Origin: Bretschneidera sinensis
Taxonomy: Eukaryota; Streptophyta; Magnoliopsida; Brassicales; Akaniaceae
Direction: 5' to 3'
Assembly: GCA_023935145.1 (NCBI GenBank)
Contig: CM043698.1
Coordinates: 73,361,501 to 73,425,500, forward strand
DNA length: 64,000 nt
The notes beneath the pieces were generated by a model that saw only the letters and a program-made list of their open reading frames with translations, searched no databases and was not told where the DNA came from. Numbering within the stretch: the stretch's first letter is position 1; every line of letters starts with the position of its first letter. Of the stretch, positions 791-18,585 are shown piece by piece. The position numbers and the translations under genes are program-made.

Positions 791-2464
791 GAGTGTCTGG
801 CTGAAGACTTAAAACTTAGAGCTCATGGGAGGCAGCCCACAATGTATCCTTTTATTTTTATCGTTTTTCATATTTCTTTTTTCTCTTGTTTATTATTATT
901 ATCTTGCTGTTTTCCAGTTTTACTTTCGCATTTCTTTTTCAGGGACAAAAATACGAAGCAGTTCAAATGGTGGAGCACAATTTTCAGCTTTTGTGCACCT
1001 TTGGCTACAAGGGGAGTTTCTTTTACTCTTTCTTTTACATTGAGGTCAATGCAATTTTTAAGTTGGAGGTGGAAGAAACGCATCTCTTTGTTTCCATTTT
1101 CTTTATTTTCATACATTTTTCTTTTTCCATTGAACTGCTTGGTGTCATTTTCCCTCTCTTTTGTTTTAAGCATGCTTTGTGGTTGCCTTGGAGTTAAGTC
1201 ACATGTCAATGATATAAACTTAATTGAGATAGCAGATAGCATTTAGAAGGAGTTAAATTTTGTTTCGGTTTGAAATTAATTTAAATATCAATCTTCATTT
1301 GGTTTGAGACTCTAGTTTGTGGTAAGATTGTATGATTAGTCTATAACATCTAGAAAAATTTTATGTGTGATTATTTTGTGAATATTTTTGCGGTCTCAAC
1401 AAGCTCTAGAACTTACTTGATAATTACTTGAGGCGAATTCCTAGAATGCACACTACTTGGGATATGATATAGGCCATTTTTGAACCGTTTGAACCTTTCA
1501 AACCTACCATTGCTATATTTATCACTAGTCACCTATTTGAGCCTTTTTCTTGAAAAAGAATTTGAGTCTTGTTTCTTTCAATAGCCAATTTACTCACCTT
1601 TATGAGCCTAAAATATTTTATCCTTACCTTCCTTTTAAAAGAACTTAGTTATACACATTTGTTGAAGAAGCACTTAAAAGGAGTAAGGGTGGAAATATGA
1701 AACAAATATCACTAGCACAACCCAAGTACATTAAAGGAGATAAGTTGGGGGTTATGGAAAAGAAAATAAAAAAATGAATGATGAAAAAGAAGTTGAATGG
1801 TTATGTGCCAAAATAAATAAATAATTAATTAATTATGGTAAAGAAAGAAGAAGGAAAGAAAAAAATATGGTGATTTGTTGAAAGAAATGCTCGAAAAATG
1901 GTTGAAAGAGTTGGGTGTTGAAGTAAGGTTATCCAGTGCTTAAAGAGTTGTGTTTAAAACTACGAGATTAAGTTCTTCTACTTGTTGAATCCTTCCCATT
2001 CTTTCTTAACCTTTACCTTAGCCTAACGTTACAAGCTTATTAAAGACCTTTTGATCCAATGTAGTGTGATTTTTCTAATAGTGGAGAGTGATTTGAAAAA
2101 TGAGCATATGGAGCTTGTTTTTGTGATTGATGTCACGCAATTTATTATGTTTTTAGAGGCCAAGACTTGTATTCATGAATCTTATGCATAAAATCATCCG
2201 GATGTTCGGATTAATGGATTGTGGTAAGATGGATGTTAAGAGTTAGTAACGATTTTAAGATTGATGTTTGGATTACTTTTGGACTTGGGTGAAATTTAAT
2301 GGTTCTATGTGTTGTCTGTTAAGTGCAATTTTTGAGACAAAAAAAATTAATTACTCTTGGTTAACACTAATATTGCTTTTCATTTACTTTGATTCCCATC
2401 GTAGAATTCATCTCTTGTTTTCACTTGAATTGCTAGGGACTAGCAATAAGCTAGTTGGGGGTTG
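791..2464 (+). mobile_element. Non-coding spacer of the Athila-like element before its 3' LTR
   Basis: This stretch starts with a GTCTGGCTGAAGAC block and a CATGGGAGGCAGCCCACAAT block. The same blocks recur near 24800, 28690 and (minus strand) 51935-51975. Long T-rich and A-rich stretches follow. It ends in TAGTTGGGGGTTG, a plausible polypurine tract, directly before the LTR. Hydrophobic ORFs here (for example 842-1246) are artefacts of T-rich sequence. No gene is seen. Confidence 0.65.
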
Positions 2465-3930
2465 TGATGAGAGTCATAAAATGCATATGAACTGTACTTA
2501 ATTGTTAGCATGTTAGGGTTGATCTAGGTTTGAATTGCAGTTTTATACCTTAAAAACTCTAAAGTGTCATTCTTGGATCATTGATCAATTTCGATGCATT
2601 TTCAGGAACTTTAAATTCAAAAGATGGAAAAGCTATCATTGCTTGAAGCACAATGACTCGATGAACATCGGAGTGAAGGTTCACAAGCACTTGGAAAGGA
2701 GTTTCACTAAATTGCCAGAATTGTCTGTACAGATCAGTCATCTTTGCAGATTTAACTGTATTGATTTAGGGAGAACCAGGAGATGCATCATATATACTTA
2801 GAAAGACCCGGAAGTCTATTTTCTGGAAAATTTTACGGCTCGTAAAAATAATTTTTCTAGAGAAAGTTATGGCAGTTTAAGTAGACAAAGGTCAGCCTGT
2901 GCGGGCTGTGCGGGATTTCAGCGTGATTTTGGGCTTAAATCCCACATCCCACATTGGTTGGAAAACACATTTCTATATCCCATATCCCACATCGAATTGG
3001 AAACACACTGCACTCGTGGTATTTCTCTATAAAAATCCTACTCTACTTTAGCTTTGGGGCATCAATCGGAGCTCATCTGAAATCATCAGAGAGTGAATTC
3101 AGAGGGCCTTTAGGAGCAATCCAGAGGGCCTTTAGGACGAATCCGAAATATAATTTTGGAGGACAAGCTGAGGAATCGCCGAAGCTTTCGCTACCAAGGA
3201 GGAGATGATCGTTGAGAGGCCGGAGGCAACTCAAGGAAGCATGAGCTCCATGGCCGGCTAGTCTCCAAGCAAGGCGAAGGGATGAATCCCTAGGTGTAGT
3301 TGTTCTTATTTTCCTTTATTTGATTCAGTTGTAGTTTGGTATTATTTTCATTAAATATTGTTATGTTTTATTCTTTAATTTAATTAGTAGATTTTTATTA
3401 GTCTGGTGACTGCATGTTTCTTTTCCATATAAGTCTAGTCATGCTCTTCTTATATGTATTTGTTTGGGTGTGATTGAGTCCGGTAGATCTCTTTTATAGA
3501 TTTGTCCATTGCTGTGGTATTGTCATTTAGATATATCATCGTCTTTTGATAATTTATAAGTTAGGTCATGTGTACTTGAAAGTAAAGAATAATTCATATC
3601 AATTACATTAGGGTTTATACATGCGCTTTAACTGAATATTTGTCGATTGCCTGTTTGGGATGTAAAACTTGCAATCGAGATAAAAACAACTGAATCAAGT
3701 TAGAATTAAGGCAACGAACCTAGGGAGGATTTCCAAAACCTTGTTGTTTCTTTATTATACTATCCATCAATTATTTACACAATTTATATACAATCAACAA
3801 ATTAGATTTTGTCACTTTAACTTTTATCGTTTGTTTTGTGATTTATACCTTCTTTTGTAATTAACTTGTTTCCCTGTGGAATCGACACCCCAAAACTGTA
3901 CTATAACTACCGCGTTATGTTTTGGGTGCA
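2465..3930 (+). repeat. 3' LTR of the first Athila-like element
   Basis: It begins TGATGAGAGTC after the polypurine tract and ends near TTTTGGGTGCA, at the switch to an unrelated chromovirus reading frame at 3931. A TATA box (TATAAAA, 3028-3034) lies within it, preceded by repeated TCCCACAT blocks that may be promoter elements. The 5' LTR is outside the window, so no target duplication can be checked, and the right border is inferred from the change of sequence type. Confidence 0.6.
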
Positions 3931-4171
3931 CTCAAGCCCCTATAGGAGTTAGGGTCTCTTATGACCTAGATATTGAGAGTATACTGGCTGACCGAGTTTT
4001 GAGACGGAAGAACTACAAGCTGAGGCATTAGTACTTGAAACAATGGAAGGGACAACCCGAGAGTGAGACTAGTTAGGAACCAGCCGAGATCTTGTGGCAA
4101 TTTCAAACGAAGATCGACCAGTTTCAGGCCGAGAGTGCGATGAGGACATCACCAGATTGAGTGGGGGAGAA
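3931..4171 (+). pseudogene. C-terminal end of a chromovirus (Ty3) polyprotein with chromodomain
   Basis: The frame reads APIGVRVSYDLDIESILADR and then a YLKQWKGQPESET block and EPAEILWQFQTKIDQF. This is the signature of the integrase-linked chromodomain at the end of plant chromovirus Pol. Several in-frame stops are present. The sequence ends in GTGGGGGAGAA, a polypurine tract touching the next LTR. In active elements the chromodomain directs integration to marked chromatin. Only the last 60-80 codons remain, cut on the left by the LTR ending at 3930. Confidence 0.75.
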
Positions 4172-4609
4172 TGTCATAACCCACGTGAGACCTGCGTGTT
4201 CGAGGGTTTCCTAGTACACTTTTTTATTATAATGTACAACATTATATTGCACATGCACTACATGGTAGTACCTTGTACTTTCGTACTACACTTGTAGTAC
4301 ACTTGTAGTGCACTTATAGTATTGTAGGATTGTGACACTTAGCAAGATGTCAGCCATGGATGTAAGGGAGCTCTCCCTATATAAAGGGGCCTCCCCCTCA
4401 CTTGTAAATCATTCAATCATTCAAGCAATAGCAAGCTCTCTAGCTTTGTCTTATATTCTCTCTTGTGTTGGCTTATTTTCTTTGAGTGGGTCTAGCTTCA
4501 AGGGTGGTTCTCTTGAGTAGCCAAGAGGAAGGCTGACTTAGGCATTCCAAGGAGGTGTTTCCGAGGCTAAGGCCGAACGATTAGCAACTTGAGCTTGCAG
4601 CTTGTGACA
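4172..4609 (+). repeat. 3' LTR of the chromovirus
   Basis: A 438-bp block starts TGTCATAACC straight after the polypurine tract and ends TTGTGACA, giving TGTCA/TGACA inverted ends. TATATAAA at 4378-4385 is a good TATA box with a short pyrimidine-rich leader after it. At 4610 the sequence switches to a branched-chain aminotransferase exon, so this LTR forms the border of that duplicated fragment. Confidence 0.75.
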
Positions 4610-13599: not shown

Positions 13600-13745
13600 T
13601 GAATTGTGCAGAGGCCTGAGAAGATCCCCAATATCAGATAGAGTAGGATGGGGATCAGTAGGCATGCATCTATTATGCATTGTCCTTATGTCTCCTTTAT
13701 CAATTGTAGATATGAAAGCATTGTACAGCTCCGACGGAATCTGCA
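13600..13745 (-). pseudogene. Shrunken duplicate of squalene epoxidase exon 6
   Basis: The minus strand reads IPSELYNAFISTIDKGDIRT then MPTDPHPTL...SDIGDLLRPLHN, a second copy of exon 6 (13781-14056) lying in the intron before exon 7. Its own TTTGCAG acceptor is kept. About 24 residues are missing, including the GD motif and TGGG block that bind FAD. It looks like a tandem exon duplication that then suffered a deletion. Confidence 0.85.
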
Positions 13746-14590
13746 AACATGAATTTTGTTTTCAGAGATCTGTCTCTTACCTTACGAATAGTGTAGAAGG
13801 ATTCAAGATGTTTGCAAAGGGCAGAGGCATCATTAAGATTGTGTAAAGGCCTGAGAAGATCCCTTAGTACAACAATATCAGATAGAGCCACAGTCGTCCC
13901 ACCTCCTGTTAGAGGGTGTCGCATGTTGAATGTGTCACCCAGTAGAAGTGCACCTGGAGTAGGATGGGGATCTGCAGGCATACTTCTATTTGGCATCGTT
14001 CTTATGTTTCCTTTATCAATTGCAGATATAAAAGCAGTAGGCAGCTCATGAGGAATCTGAAAAATCATAGGTCCCTCAATTGGTCAGAAGTACTGGAAAG
14101 TAAGCACACACAAATTGGGATTATGAAGTGACTTATATATGGACAAGTATTTTTAATCAAGTTCATTCATTATTAAAATTACCAACCATAGTTAAAAAAA
14201 TAATGAATAGAAATTCTTTTGATAGAAGGAGATAGAAATCAAAATCATTTTAATGGCAGTAAACAAAAAGAACTTGAGTCAGGCATCATTGTATATGTAC
14301 TTAAATGTATAGAAATCATTTCAAGTAATTCTGTACAAACCTGGGGAGCCACCATGGTTTTCAAGTAGTTGGCCATTTCACCATTAGAAACGGAAGGCAC
14401 CCTTTTGCCAGGTACATCGACCAAACAGCGAATCTCTGTGCTACTGAGACGATAAAACAAGATGGGTGAAGGGTCTGCCAGTATGACATGCCCATGATTG
14501 CATATGGAAGCTCACAGTTCTCCAGGATCAAACCAACAAAGCAAGAGGGGATATCGACTTGCAATTTTTTTAGAAAACTGCTATTAATCT

Positions 14591-15012
14591 TGTTGGTGAT
14601 TTGCATCAGGTGCTGCTGCACCACTCTGCCCATGTGTGCAGCTGTACCACTACTCCTTGTTAGATGCTACACCACTACTCTATGTTTTCTGAATTGCTAC
14701 CATGTTCTCTGCCCATACTACCTCATGTGTGCAGCTGTACAACTACTTGTTAGATGCTGCACCACTACTCTATGTTTTCTGCATTACTACCATGTTTGTG
14801 CTGTACCATGTTTGTGCTGTACCATGTGCATTTGTTTTTTGTTTATTTTTCTGCAGCTTTACTTTACAGCTTGTTATATAATGTAAGCTTATGCATTATG
14901 ATAAATGAATTCAGCAAGTTAGAATTCCAGATTACATTTTTTTGTGTATCTTCCTCCATTCTCTCCTTGTCCTAAGAAAAAATTCTTGTTCTTTCATTCC
15001 TTAAAACTAACA
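14591..15012 (+). repeat. 5' LTR of the chimeric copia element
   Basis: This is 422 bp, TGTTGGTGATT...AAAACTAACA. TATATAA at 14875-14881 is a likely TATA box. It is nearly identical to the 3' LTR except for an extra 16-bp tandem copy of a GTTTGTGCTGTACCAT unit near 14790-14825, which explains the 422 versus 406 bp. Confidence 0.93.
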
Positions 15013-15014
15013 AT

Positions 15015-15026
15015 TGGTATCAGAGC
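15015..15026 (+). other. Primer-binding site (initiator tRNA-Met)
   Basis: TGGTATCAGAGC is complementary to the 3' end of plant initiator tRNA-Met. It is two bases from the LTR end, the normal place for minus-strand cDNA priming in plant copia elements. Confidence 0.9.
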
Positions 15027-15066
15027 TATATTCTTGAGGGATCTGTGAGTTCATTTGAGTGTTCTA

Positions 15067-17343
15067 ATGGAAGGAGAATCCAGTTTTTCATCAATGACTC
15101 CACCAGTTTTTGATGGAGACAACTATCAAATTTGGGCTGTGAGAATGGAGACCTATCTAGATGCAATGGATCTTTGGGAAGCTGTAGAAGAGGACTACGA
15201 AGTTCCTCTTCTGCCAAACAACCCCACAATGGCCCAGATCAAGAATCACAAGGACAGAAAAACAAGGAAGTCAAAAGCAAAAGCCTGTTTGTTTGCTGGC
15301 GTCTCTTCGACTATCTTCACCCGAGTCATGTCACTCAAATCAGTAAAAGCAATTTGGGATTATCTCAAAAAAGAGTATGAAGGAAATGAGAGGATCAGAG
15401 GAATGCAAGTGCTGAATTTGATCAGAGATTTTGAACTGCAGAAAATGAAGGAATCAGAAACCATTAAAGAGTATTCTGACAAACTTCTAAGCATTGCCAA
15501 TAAGGTAAAACTGCTTGGTTCTGATCTACCTAACTCGAGGATTGTCCAAAAAATCCTAGTAACGGTGCCTGAAAAATTTGAGGCAACCATTACAACCTTG
15601 GAGAACACCAAGGATCTGTCCAAGATTACCTTGGCAGAGCTCGTAAATGCTTTACAAGCACAAGAGCAAAGAAGGGTCATGAGGCAAGAAGGAGTCGTTG
15701 AAGGAGCGCTTCTAGTCAAGCATCAAGAAGGCTGGAAAATGAGGAAGAAGAACAAAAAGATTTTTGTTGCAAGTGGCGATGCTACAGCAAACACCAACAA
15801 GAACAAGACTGGAGGTACGAAGGGAAATCATCCTCCATGCCAACATTGTGGCAGAAAGGGTCATCCTCCTTTCAAATGCTGGAGGAGACCTGATGCAAAA
15901 TGCAGCAAGTGTAACCAACAAGGTCATGAAGCTGTGATTTGCAAAAGCAAAAATCAGCAGCAAGAAGCAGATGCTCAAGTTGCTGATCAAGAGGAGGAGG
16001 ATCAGCTCTTTGTTGCTACTTGCTTCTCAGGCAATGATTCAAGTAAGAGCTGGTTAATTGATAGTGGTTGCACTAACCATATGACACATGACAAGGAGCT
16101 GTTCAAGGAATTAAGAAGCACGGAGACTTCAAAAGTCAGAATTGGCAATGGACAACATATAGCAGTCAAGGGAAAAGGAACCATTGCAATTGCAAGTTGT
16201 TCAGGTACAAAACTTATCTCTAATGTTCTCTATGTTCCAGAAATTGACCAAAATCTGTTAAGTGTTGGTCAGTTGATAGAGAAAGGCTTCAAAGTACATT
16301 TTGAAGACAATTACTGCCTGATAAAAGATGCATCTGGTCAAGAGATGTTCAACATCAAGATGAGAGGAAAGAGCTTCACACTTAACCCACTTAAGGAGGA
16401 GTCGGACAGTGACCAAGAAAGGGCCAGAAACATGGAAGAAGCAGAGATCCTAGAGCTATACGAACTCAGTTACTCAGATCTCATGCTCTTATCATCTTCA
16501 GGTGGATCATCATATTCACCAGAAGATGAAGAAAGGCTGGAGAAGGCAACAGATGTGCATGGTGCATTTGCAGAGGAGAAAGAATCTGGTGATGTTCCAG
16601 TGGGGGTCTCAGATCATGTTTCTCCTGTAAAACCTGCAATGCTCCAAAAGATTGAAAATTTGGATCAAGTGAAGCCATCTCCACTGCCTGACAGCTGGAA
16701 ACTGAAGAAGATTTTCTCTACTGGTATTGTGCTTGGAGGTTACTTGGTGCTAATGACTGTTTTATTCTTTTGGGCAATGATAGACACCAACTTCTTCACA
16801 GACAAATTTGGTGTTAAAGCACTAAGGAATCATAATGAGCAAATGATGGCAGCTTTATATCTGCAAGTCAGTATTGTGAGCCAGGCCCTTATTTTTGTTA
16901 CAAGGTCTCGCAGCTGGTCCTTCATTGAGCATCCAGGTCTGTTAGTTGGTGCTTTCATAAGAGCACAGCTGGTAGGCACTTTAATAGCAGTTTATGCAAA
17001 ATGGGGTTTTGCTCGTATAAAGGGCTGTGGCTGGGGATGGGCCAGAGTAATCTGGTTTTATAGTGTGGTAACATATATCCCACTTTACTTGCTCAAATTT
17101 GCAAACTACTATATGCTGAGTGGGAAGGCGTGGGATAATCTCCTAGAGAGCAGGACCGTGTTTACCTCTAAGAAAGACTATGGCAAAAATGAGAGAGAAG
17201 CACAATGGGCTGCTGCACAAAGAACCCTACATGGTCTTCAACCACCTGAAACCAGCAATTTTTTTTTAATGATAAGAATAGCTACAGGGAACTTTCAGAG
17301 ATTGCAGAACAAGCAAAGAGACAAGTTGAGGTGGCAAGGCTGA
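15067..17343 (+). CDS. Gag-protease fused to plasma-membrane H+-ATPase C-terminal membrane domain
   Basis: This is an uninterrupted 758-codon ORF. The ATG at 15067 is preferred because it begins MEGESSF, as copia gag proteins do. Residues 1-250 are copia gag (UBN2 type). Two zinc knuckles follow: [14 protein letters not shown] (from 258) and [14 protein letters not shown] (from 279). Protease has [11 protein letters not shown] with the catalytic Asp at 332. Residues about 440-534 are acidic, Ser-rich and of unknown origin. From 535 ([12 protein letters not shown]) to about 733 ([13 protein letters not shown]) it matches plant P3A proton pumps: helices M7-M10 and the start of the regulatory tail, with motifs [20 protein letters not shown] and [18 protein letters not shown] 9-T run (17259-17267) then shifts the frame. 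In another frame the pump tail continues to a stop near 17380. The pump part lacks the P, A and N domains, so it cannot transport protons. Product and membrane location are inferred. Confidence 0.9.
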
Positions 17344-17382
17344 GAGAGCTTCTTAGGCAGAGACATGGAGTTTGCAGCTCCT
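16669..17382 (+). other. Captured H+-ATPase segment without introns
   Basis: About 710 bp encode the end of an autoinhibited plasma-membrane proton pump, from the M6-M7 loop through M10 to the first helix of the C-terminal regulatory region ([19 protein letters not shown], then [14 protein letters not shown] in the shifted frame). The distal part of the regulatory domain, including the C-terminal 14-3-3 site, is absent. No GT...AG interruption is visible, although plant pump genes have many introns, which suggests capture from spliced mRNA by template switching. Confidence 0.88.
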
Positions 17383-17396
17383 AATGCAAGGAGGAG

Positions 17397-17802
17397 TGTT
17401 GGTGATTTGCATCAGGTGCTGCTGCACCACTCTGCCCATGTGTGCAGCTGTACCACTACTCCTTGTTAGATGCTACACCACTACTCTATGTTTTCTGAAT
17501 TGCTACCATGTTCTCTGCCCATACTACCTCATGTGTGCAGCTGTACAACTACTTGTTAGATGCTGCACCACTACTCTATGTTTTCTGCATTACTACCATG
17601 TTTGTGCTGTACCATGTGCATTTGTTTTTTGTTTATTTTTCTGCAGCTTTACTTTACAGCTTGTTATATAATGTAAGCTTATGCATTATGATAAATGAAT
17701 TCAGCAAGTTAGAATTCCAGATTACATTTTTTTGTGTATCTTCCTCCATTCTCTCTTTGTCCTAAGAAAAAATTCTTGTTCTTTCATTCCTTAAAACTAA
17801 CA
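17397..17802 (+). repeat. 3' LTR of the chimeric copia element
   Basis: This is 406 bp, beginning TGTTGGTGATT after GCAAGGAGGAG and ending AAAACTAACA, followed by the duplicated AATCT. It is almost identical to the 5' LTR apart from the 16-bp unit, which implies recent insertion. Confidence 0.93.
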
Positions 17803-18585
17803 AATCTCGTGCAGAAACTATGAATTCTATGGTTTACGACTCATGCATCTGGATAGATTCTGTTTTTAAGTATGATCACCTTAGGATTACAGAGAGAACG
17901 TCCCAAATTTGAAAAACAACCATCACATACTATTGTGAGGGGAGCATAAGCTGTCAACTCTTGTCCAGTCTTGGTTTTGTATTGCACTCCTTTTATAGTC
18001 CCCTTTTCTTTAATGAGAGATGTTACTGTCTCTTCTTCCATTCTTACACTAATGAAATTAAAATCAAGAAAGAGTATGTAAATAAGAATATATAAAACAC
18101 TGGTACTTGATATGATGAAGATAACAATGAAAATCTTCTTATATAATATAATTGAGTTAGATAAACCCAATGTAATATGATGGAAGAATTGAGAATCTTC
18201 TTATATAATATAACTGTGCTAAAGTACAAAAATCTAACGATTATGGCACCAGAACAATAAATTGAAATGAACGTTTTTTAATGGATTAAAGAAAATATAT
18301 ACTTGGATAGGGATGTGGATTTTTCTCGCATCTATTGTGTGAAACGCCCGCTATGAAAGATTCTACCAGCCACATCTGAATGAAAATTTTGCAATGGATA
18401 AGATAGTTTGGTATATTTCTCATCCTTGTAAATAGCGTAACCGAACACTCTCTGAGCATCAATATCATTTACACAATCTGCAAATTACAGTTAATTAGTT
18501 ATGTGTAATTGTGAGAAAAAACTATAAATTCACCTTAATTTTCTCAGGCTCACAGAAGGTGAACATAATTAAATTAGATGTTTTA

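Follow-up and report, generated by a model that had tools for sequence, protein, structure and literature searches.

The locus described here raises the question of how the membrane part of a plant proton pump came to lie inside a retrotransposon, and whether it serves any purpose there. The stretch of DNA analysed (the window) comprises 64,000 nucleotides of contig CM043698.1 of Bretschneidera sinensis, and contains at 14591-17802, on the plus strand, a small complete Copia element of 3.2 kb in which gag and protease share an open reading frame (ORF) with the end of a P3A proton pump. Very probably the element is a non-autonomous retrotransposon of the Copia type that arose through successive template switches and has host complementary DNA (cDNA) in place of pol. 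Its family retains the long terminal repeats (LTRs), the primer-binding site (PBS), gag-protease, the last RNase H codons and the polypurine tract (PPT), as in a pol-bearing relative of the same genome; the space between gag-protease and the RNase H end is filled with spliced host sequence, and most of the joins lie on short shared runs.

The first-pass annotation had recognised LTRs, PBS, PPT and AATCT duplications at 14591-17802, and all of them are confirmed in the sequence (Table 1). The 5' and 3' LTRs (422 and 406 bp) have the TG...CA ends of Copia elements and differ by one substitution in 406 aligned bases and one 16-bp gap; the PBS is presumably of the initiator-Met transfer RNA type. 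The 758-codon ORF with gag, two zinc knuckles, protease and helices M7-M10 also stands: Pfam finds a Copia-type gag (Retrotran_gag_2, E 1.5e-42; Pol_BBD, E 1.4e-30), fusion residues 535-682 match Arabidopsis AHA2 (PDB 5ksd, E 8.5e-64), and two CCHC knuckles and a DSG protease motif were recognised by eye. No integrase, reverse transcriptase or RNase H domain of its own was found in the ORF by Pfam, just the last 12 RNase H codons being left. The pump cargo is the part after M6 only; the catalytic domains and helices M1-M6 are absent. The direct in-frame fusion of gag to pump that had been proposed needs revision, since two segments, here called Y and X, intervene and the pump joins X; native Copia sequence stops near 16401, and the order is gag-protease, Y, X, pump, RNase H end. 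The pump begins at 16662-16664 rather than at 16669, and it rejoins the native Copia RNase H C-terminus at 17346-17355. Its frame is lost at a run of nine T (17259-17267) and the final 25 ORF codons are not pump sequence; in the copy L033 this run has ten T and the pump frame is kept through to the native stop.

The pump part had been noted as intronless and ascribed to capture from messenger RNA (mRNA). Alignment to the host H+-ATPase genes bears this out, as it yields a donor, L043 (C3:22317881-22319285), with five exons over the captured part and a frame open through the stop codon, whose four GT-AG introns are cleanly absent from the element (splice sites judged by eye). In the last exon of the donor the sequence is GAGAGAGCTTCTTACTTTG, at the native Copia end AAATTTGAGCTTCTTAGGCAG; ten bases are common to both, GAGCTTCTTA, and they lie precisely at the changeover. 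The paralogue L044 (C2:12259268) is ruled out as donor: its last exon has GAGCTGCATAC where the join requires GAGCTTCTTA, and its exons fit the element worse (95, 88, 92 and 87% identity versus 98, 94, 94 and 92% for L043). The replacements R88H, N112K, I147N and T168S and two silent changes are common to all copies having data; a single pump capture therefore founded all of them.

Segment X is likewise spliced host sequence. The 124 bases before the pump (16538-16661) match a multi-exon gene on C1, with exon matches of 45 bases at 96% and 81 bases at 93%; the 111-nt exon between the two is present in the pump-less copy L027 and gone from the window element, and two introns of the gene are absent, as seen in L027 (splice sites by eye). 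Segment Y (16402-16543) is not Copia: the pol-bearing relative L061 there runs on into the usual pre-integrase and integrase. In L059 and L060 it leads on to a long protein that Pfam matches weakly to the 2OG-Fe(II)-oxygenases (E 0.0032; 18.2 bits, below the cut-off of 23 bits), from which its tentative name is taken, and Y perhaps includes a stretch upstream of the ATG of this protein. A PDB search with Y gave no match; when residues 444-534 (Y and X) were compared with 216 candidate homologues, none passed E 0.001. In L060 (C2:142521600-142525900, 997-3456) nearly all of Y reads on from gag and into the RNase H end in a single frame, bar a few interruptions and open for 678 codons, yet an intron-bearing Y gene was not found in the genome (40 of 51 DNA and 5 of 5 protein candidates scored). 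From the Y cargo, a short piece of 46-47 nt (query 660-706) occurs at 12 or more other loci with 96-98% identity, for instance at C9:86357408-86357454.

A search of the genome (1.21 Gb, 550 contigs) for further copies with the same junction, as had been proposed, was run with window 16560-17400 as query. It gave at least 70 matches, and the counts of pump copies are lower bounds because 40 of the 189 candidates were scored. Gag-side sequence and pump stand together at 13 places at least, and thus in at least 12 insertions, L039 and L040 being one duplicated stretch. That stretch (C8:80.39 and 80.14 Mb) covers 7.4 kb or more including the pump element; its two occurrences lie about 255 kb from each other and are 99.9% identical, which makes it either a segmental duplication or an assembly duplicate. 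Both LTRs are present in ten insertions, with target-site duplications (TSDs) that are exact in seven, show one mismatch in two and are unclear in L039. At the young end the LTR mismatches are 0/407 (L034), 1/406 (window), 1/406 (L033), 2/406 (L032) and 2/407 (L035); the others have 6/369 (L031), 5/322 (L039), 16/394 (L038), 13/333 (L041) and, over part of the LTR only, 12/180 (L037). The ages of the pump insertions would then be about 0 to 2.7 million years at 1.3e-8 substitutions per site per year, a rice rate that is perhaps too fast for this plant. The recent movement suspected earlier is thus upheld, with near-identical LTRs and repeated transposition.

Every one of the 12 insertions has the X-pump join, and all 11 that extend far enough have the pump-RNase H join. 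An assembly artefact, the chimera being a misjoin, is hardly conceivable: nothing was found in its favour, and the same joins recur in copies of differing LTR age and flank; among the 11 insertions that have a 5' LTR, the 300 bp to the left show no mutual similarity. Both a solitary copy with a misassembled junction and donor introns in the pump part were looked for, and neither was found. In L035 (C1:10991000-10998500, about 4069-4303) some 235 bp inside the element, spanning the X-pump join, are duplicated in tandem. In L037, L038 and L041 the alignable LTR pieces are 70-79% identical to the window LTRs, yet the pump is 91-95% identical, which suggests exchange of LTRs between family members; because these LTRs are far more diverged from the window than their pumps, the family relations are net-like.

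Relatives without the pump are built differently. Between its LTRs, L061 matches a full 1306-residue Copia polyprotein (P0003) over nearly all its length, with the gag frame open, and the partial sequence L062 matches residues 1-1289; the gag of both is about 96% identical to that of the window family. Besides L060, with its long Y (found at four or more places), L058 carries part of integrase, a methyltransferase piece with a frame change within it, the Y end and the RNase H end, and L026 and L030 carry Y, X, methyltransferase, a Y piece and the RNase H end. In L026 this methyltransferase piece matches the NCBIfam models for uroporphyrinogen-III C-methyltransferase (1.8e-30) and siroheme synthase (3e-32), both below the whole-protein cut-offs because the piece is partial. 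This cargo is 674 bases long, and 18 or more places have at least 600 of them (40 of 72 candidates scored); L057, considered as the methyltransferase gene, was discarded as another element fragment with an LTR. At L052 (C9:83380800-83385500) two methyltransferase-bearing elements stand in tandem, 2.8 kb apart, and possibly share an LTR. In L025 and L028 the methyltransferase end is replaced by a third host gene, gene 3, and a short fourth piece. Gene 3, at 12 element-like places (37 of 37 candidates scored), derives from C1:159667737-159668549 with two introns removed, and the fourth piece matches C7:4726461 and C2:28335291, candidate sources that may be genes. The pol-bearing and pump-less relatives thus show how the chimera came about: host cDNA took the place of pol (integrase, reverse transcriptase, RNase H), and the cargo changed several times over.

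All 40 scored of 252 candidates in a gag search of the genome were at least 92% identical over nearly the entire query. The closest gag match among the 120 listed of 545 proteins is from Nyssa sinensis (84% over 58% of the query), and no gag-pump protein was seen elsewhere among these 120, which cover at most 67% of the query; in a further search for such a protein, none of the 120 listed of 4530 matches has a gag domain.

The joins themselves bear on the mechanism. Shared runs measure 10 nt at pump-RNase H (GAGCTTCTTA, 17346-17355) and methyltransferase-gene 3 (9 nt with L026 as parent), 8 nt at gene 3-fourth piece, 6 nt at Y-X (TGGAGA, 16538-16543), 5 nt at X-methyltransferase, 2 nt at X-pump (GG, 16662-16663) and 3 nt at most at fourth piece-RNase H. 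Five of the seven thus share 5-10 nt; at a random join, runs of at least 10, 5 and 2 nt have chances of about 2e-5, 0.008 and 0.19. The return to the RNase H end falls at almost the same point for the pump and the fourth-piece cargo, a few bases apart and about 40-50 nt to the internal side of the 3' LTR (17346-17355 against 17397). Joins with 5-10 nt of identity also arise by end joining or replication-based repair, which counts for recombination at the DNA level with processed pseudogenes of the donor genes. That origin is very unlikely: the one contiguous pump-like match beyond the family (76% over 351 query bases, at C9:88310695-88311044), a point in its favour, has diverged too far for a donor; among the 40 of 189 candidates scored, nothing intronless and close to donor identity was found outside the family; and the LTRs and TSDs indicate passage through RNA after capture.

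The joins fit template switching by reverse transcriptase, which is reported for plant elements in a review. Host mRNAs would be packaged together with element RNA into gag particles, and pol-bearing relatives would supply reverse transcriptase in trans. During minus-strand synthesis this enzyme would quit the element RNA some 40-50 nt to the internal side of the 3' LTR, copy a piece of host mRNA and return upstream; the resulting chimera would be packaged and integrated like any copy, and its cargo could be replaced by another round of switching or by recombination between family members. The pump segment would be a passenger that moves by lying between working ends and not through pump function. 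Transduction by read-through, in which the element ran into a genomic pump gene and splicing and deletion yielded the chimera, is named as the route of retrotransposon transduction in a review. It has little probability here, as the pump sits within the element between gag and PPT and not past the 3' LTR, the 3' join lies on a 10-nt shared run, and several cargoes at one site would demand as many accidents.

Several points weigh against serial template switching with host cDNA. The shared runs at X-pump and fourth piece-RNase H are no longer than chance. The pol frames are broken in both L061 and L062. The Y donor was not found, the DNA and protein searches already given returning four elements only, and the host origin of Y is for this reason put at likely; nor was an intron-bearing methyltransferase gene found among the 40 of 72 candidates scored. 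At seven other pump sites (one replacement, six silent) the copies agree with the C2 paralogue and not with L043, which is read as probable later change in the donor. Finally, packaging, supply in trans and template switching are all inferred from sequence.

According to a reading that we regard as very improbable, the fusion protein works: four pump helices would anchor gag at the membrane and aid particle assembly, and selection would keep them. It can point to ORFs of 758, 758 and 772 codons in three of the six young copies, to four hydrophobic segments above 1.5 on a 19-residue scale (the fourth barely, at 1.51; that of the donor stays below), and to an even number of helices, which by P-type pump topology would put both ends in the cytosol. 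The replacement and silent changes tell against it. On the branch to the six young copies, with changes placed by the same rule, gag (about twice as long) has 5 changes in 1284 sites (3 replacement, 2 silent) and the pump 17 in 668 (15 and 2), with Fisher p of 4e-5 for all changes, 2e-5 for replacements and 0.61 for silent ones; a stricter gag rule gives 3 + 2 versus 14 + 2. The pump ratio is consistent with neutrality (0.72 expected, p 0.18), and the remaining ORFs of the young copies end at stops inside the pump (605, 712 and 565 codons), including codon 712 in L034, whose LTRs are identical. With a neutral ratio and stops in three of six, the pump is without apparent constraint, and a membrane-anchored gag kept by selection was rejected as the main explanation. 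Single-copy gag changes in older pump copies (77 replacement, 55 silent) are below neutral (p 0.0004) and those in pump-less copies (71 and 25) are neutral; stops in gag-protease are absent from the six young copies and present in all eight older or pump-less copies tested. It seems that gag matters and the pump does not, with the caveat that gag may have been exchanged by recombination; the silent rates of gag and pump show no detectable difference. As a whole, the first-pass interpretation is partly supported: the capture and its spread stand, and the working anchored gag does not.

The pump as a passenger may still have been filtered for frame. By hand count, against an expectation of one in three, nine of ten judgeable joins are in frame: gag-Y, Y-X, X-pump, pump-RNase H (in L033), X-methyltransferase, integrase-methyltransferase, methyltransferase-gene 3, methyltransferase-Y end and Y-RNase H. 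The fourth piece-RNase H join is out of frame, and gene 3-fourth piece lies outside the ten. The hand-calculated chance is about 4e-4 if the joins are independent, which is uncertain. One explanation, tentative and rather doubtful, is that host pieces persist if a single frame, beginning in gag, stays open as far as the native stop next to the PPT; the gag message would be spared a long 3' untranslated region and with it nonsense-mediated decay. On this view the family would shuffle exons serially, and gag-host fusion proteins would arise as a by-product of RNA protection.

Table 1. Features of the Copia element in window coordinates
Feature	Position	Strand	Remarks
Target-site duplication, left	14586-14590		AATCT, 5 bp; repeated at 17803-17807
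5' LTR	14591-15012	+	16 bp longer than the 3' LTR through an internal tandem duplication
Primer-binding site	15015-15026	+	TGGTATCAGAGC; after the 5' LTR; PBS-like
Fusion ORF	15067-17343	+	758 codons (15067-17340) and TGA
Native Copia gag, two zinc knuckles and protease	15067-16401	+	95.7% identity to the pol-bearing relative L061
Segment Y	16402-16543	+	initial part of a 2OG-Fe(II)-oxygenase-like protein
Segment X	16538-16663	+	two spliced exons of gene C1:16034344-16035092 (minus strand); 96% and 93% identity
Proton-pump cDNA	16662-17355	+	M7-M10 and start of the regulatory tail; source gene C3:22317881-22319285
Native RNase H C-terminus	17346-17384	+	12 residues; native TAA at 17382-17384
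Polypurine tract	17385-17396	+	TGCAAGGAGGAG; directly before the 3' LTR
3' LTR	17397-17802	+	
Target-site duplication, right	17803-17807		AATCT

The element occupies an intron-sized gap of a squalene-epoxidase-like gene on the opposite strand, whose exons lie on the minus strand at window 13700-14068, 14361-14633 and 17841-18170. Two of the flanking ORFs match Pfam SE (4e-35 and 3.4e-7); the third, the middle exon, stays below the cut-off (0.046). This locus may be a pseudogene, since a 107-bp stretch at 13641 recurs at 13957 with 81% identity and the middle exon looks frameshifted by eye.

Among known systems, the maize element Bs1 is the nearest; it is reported to be small and to lack both pol and ATPase introns. 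The window element resembles it in holding host cDNA between LTRs without introns, and in having H+-ATPase and further host sequence in the gag ORF. Bs1 is an LTR element with gag and plasma-membrane H+-ATPase sequence, in which three host segments are fused to gag. The earlier remark that few plant elements are known with host exons in frame with gag is fair, but Bs1 is a close precedent involving the same host gene family. Several host genes are also found here, in the form of pump and X, Y counting by protein resemblance only. The differences are that the cargo here is M7-M10 with Y and X, that the host is a dicot and not maize, and that donors of pump and X, pol-bearing relatives and sister elements with other cargoes occur in the same genome. 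In the maize survey of Baucom et al. 2009 (PMC2774510), 425 LTR elements, among them 36 of the Copia type, contain gene fragments that stem from at least 189 captures, and under the conditions of that survey no single element has fragments of more than one gene, whereas the window element holds two or three host genes. According to Kim et al. 2017 (PMC5664825), many retroduplicated genes occur in pepper, with NLR genes taken from spliced mRNA and spread in non-autonomous LTR elements, about 72% of them in elements without gag or pol coding; capture of spliced mRNA is alike, and here gag-protease is retained. Bs1 is also cited in a short review of additional ORFs, along with captured genes that number in the hundreds in cereals. 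By title and abstract, no family whose cargoes are successive or in frame, or that combines several host genes, was met in the open-licence literature. With Tnt1-type Copia elements the order from gag to pol is shared by L061 and L062, and several database matches are named 'transposon TNT 1-94'; unlike them, the window family has pol replaced by host cDNA.

It is thus well supported that the window element is a Bs1-type chimera for which donor, pol-bearing relatives and cargo exchange are visible in one genome. A further plant retroelement with H+-ATPase sequence, besides Bs1, points to repeated uptake of some host mRNAs. Because donors, pol-bearing relatives and several cargo states are all preserved in this one genome, the rules of gene capture (the switch site, the shared length needed and the relevance of frame) can be read from it directly.

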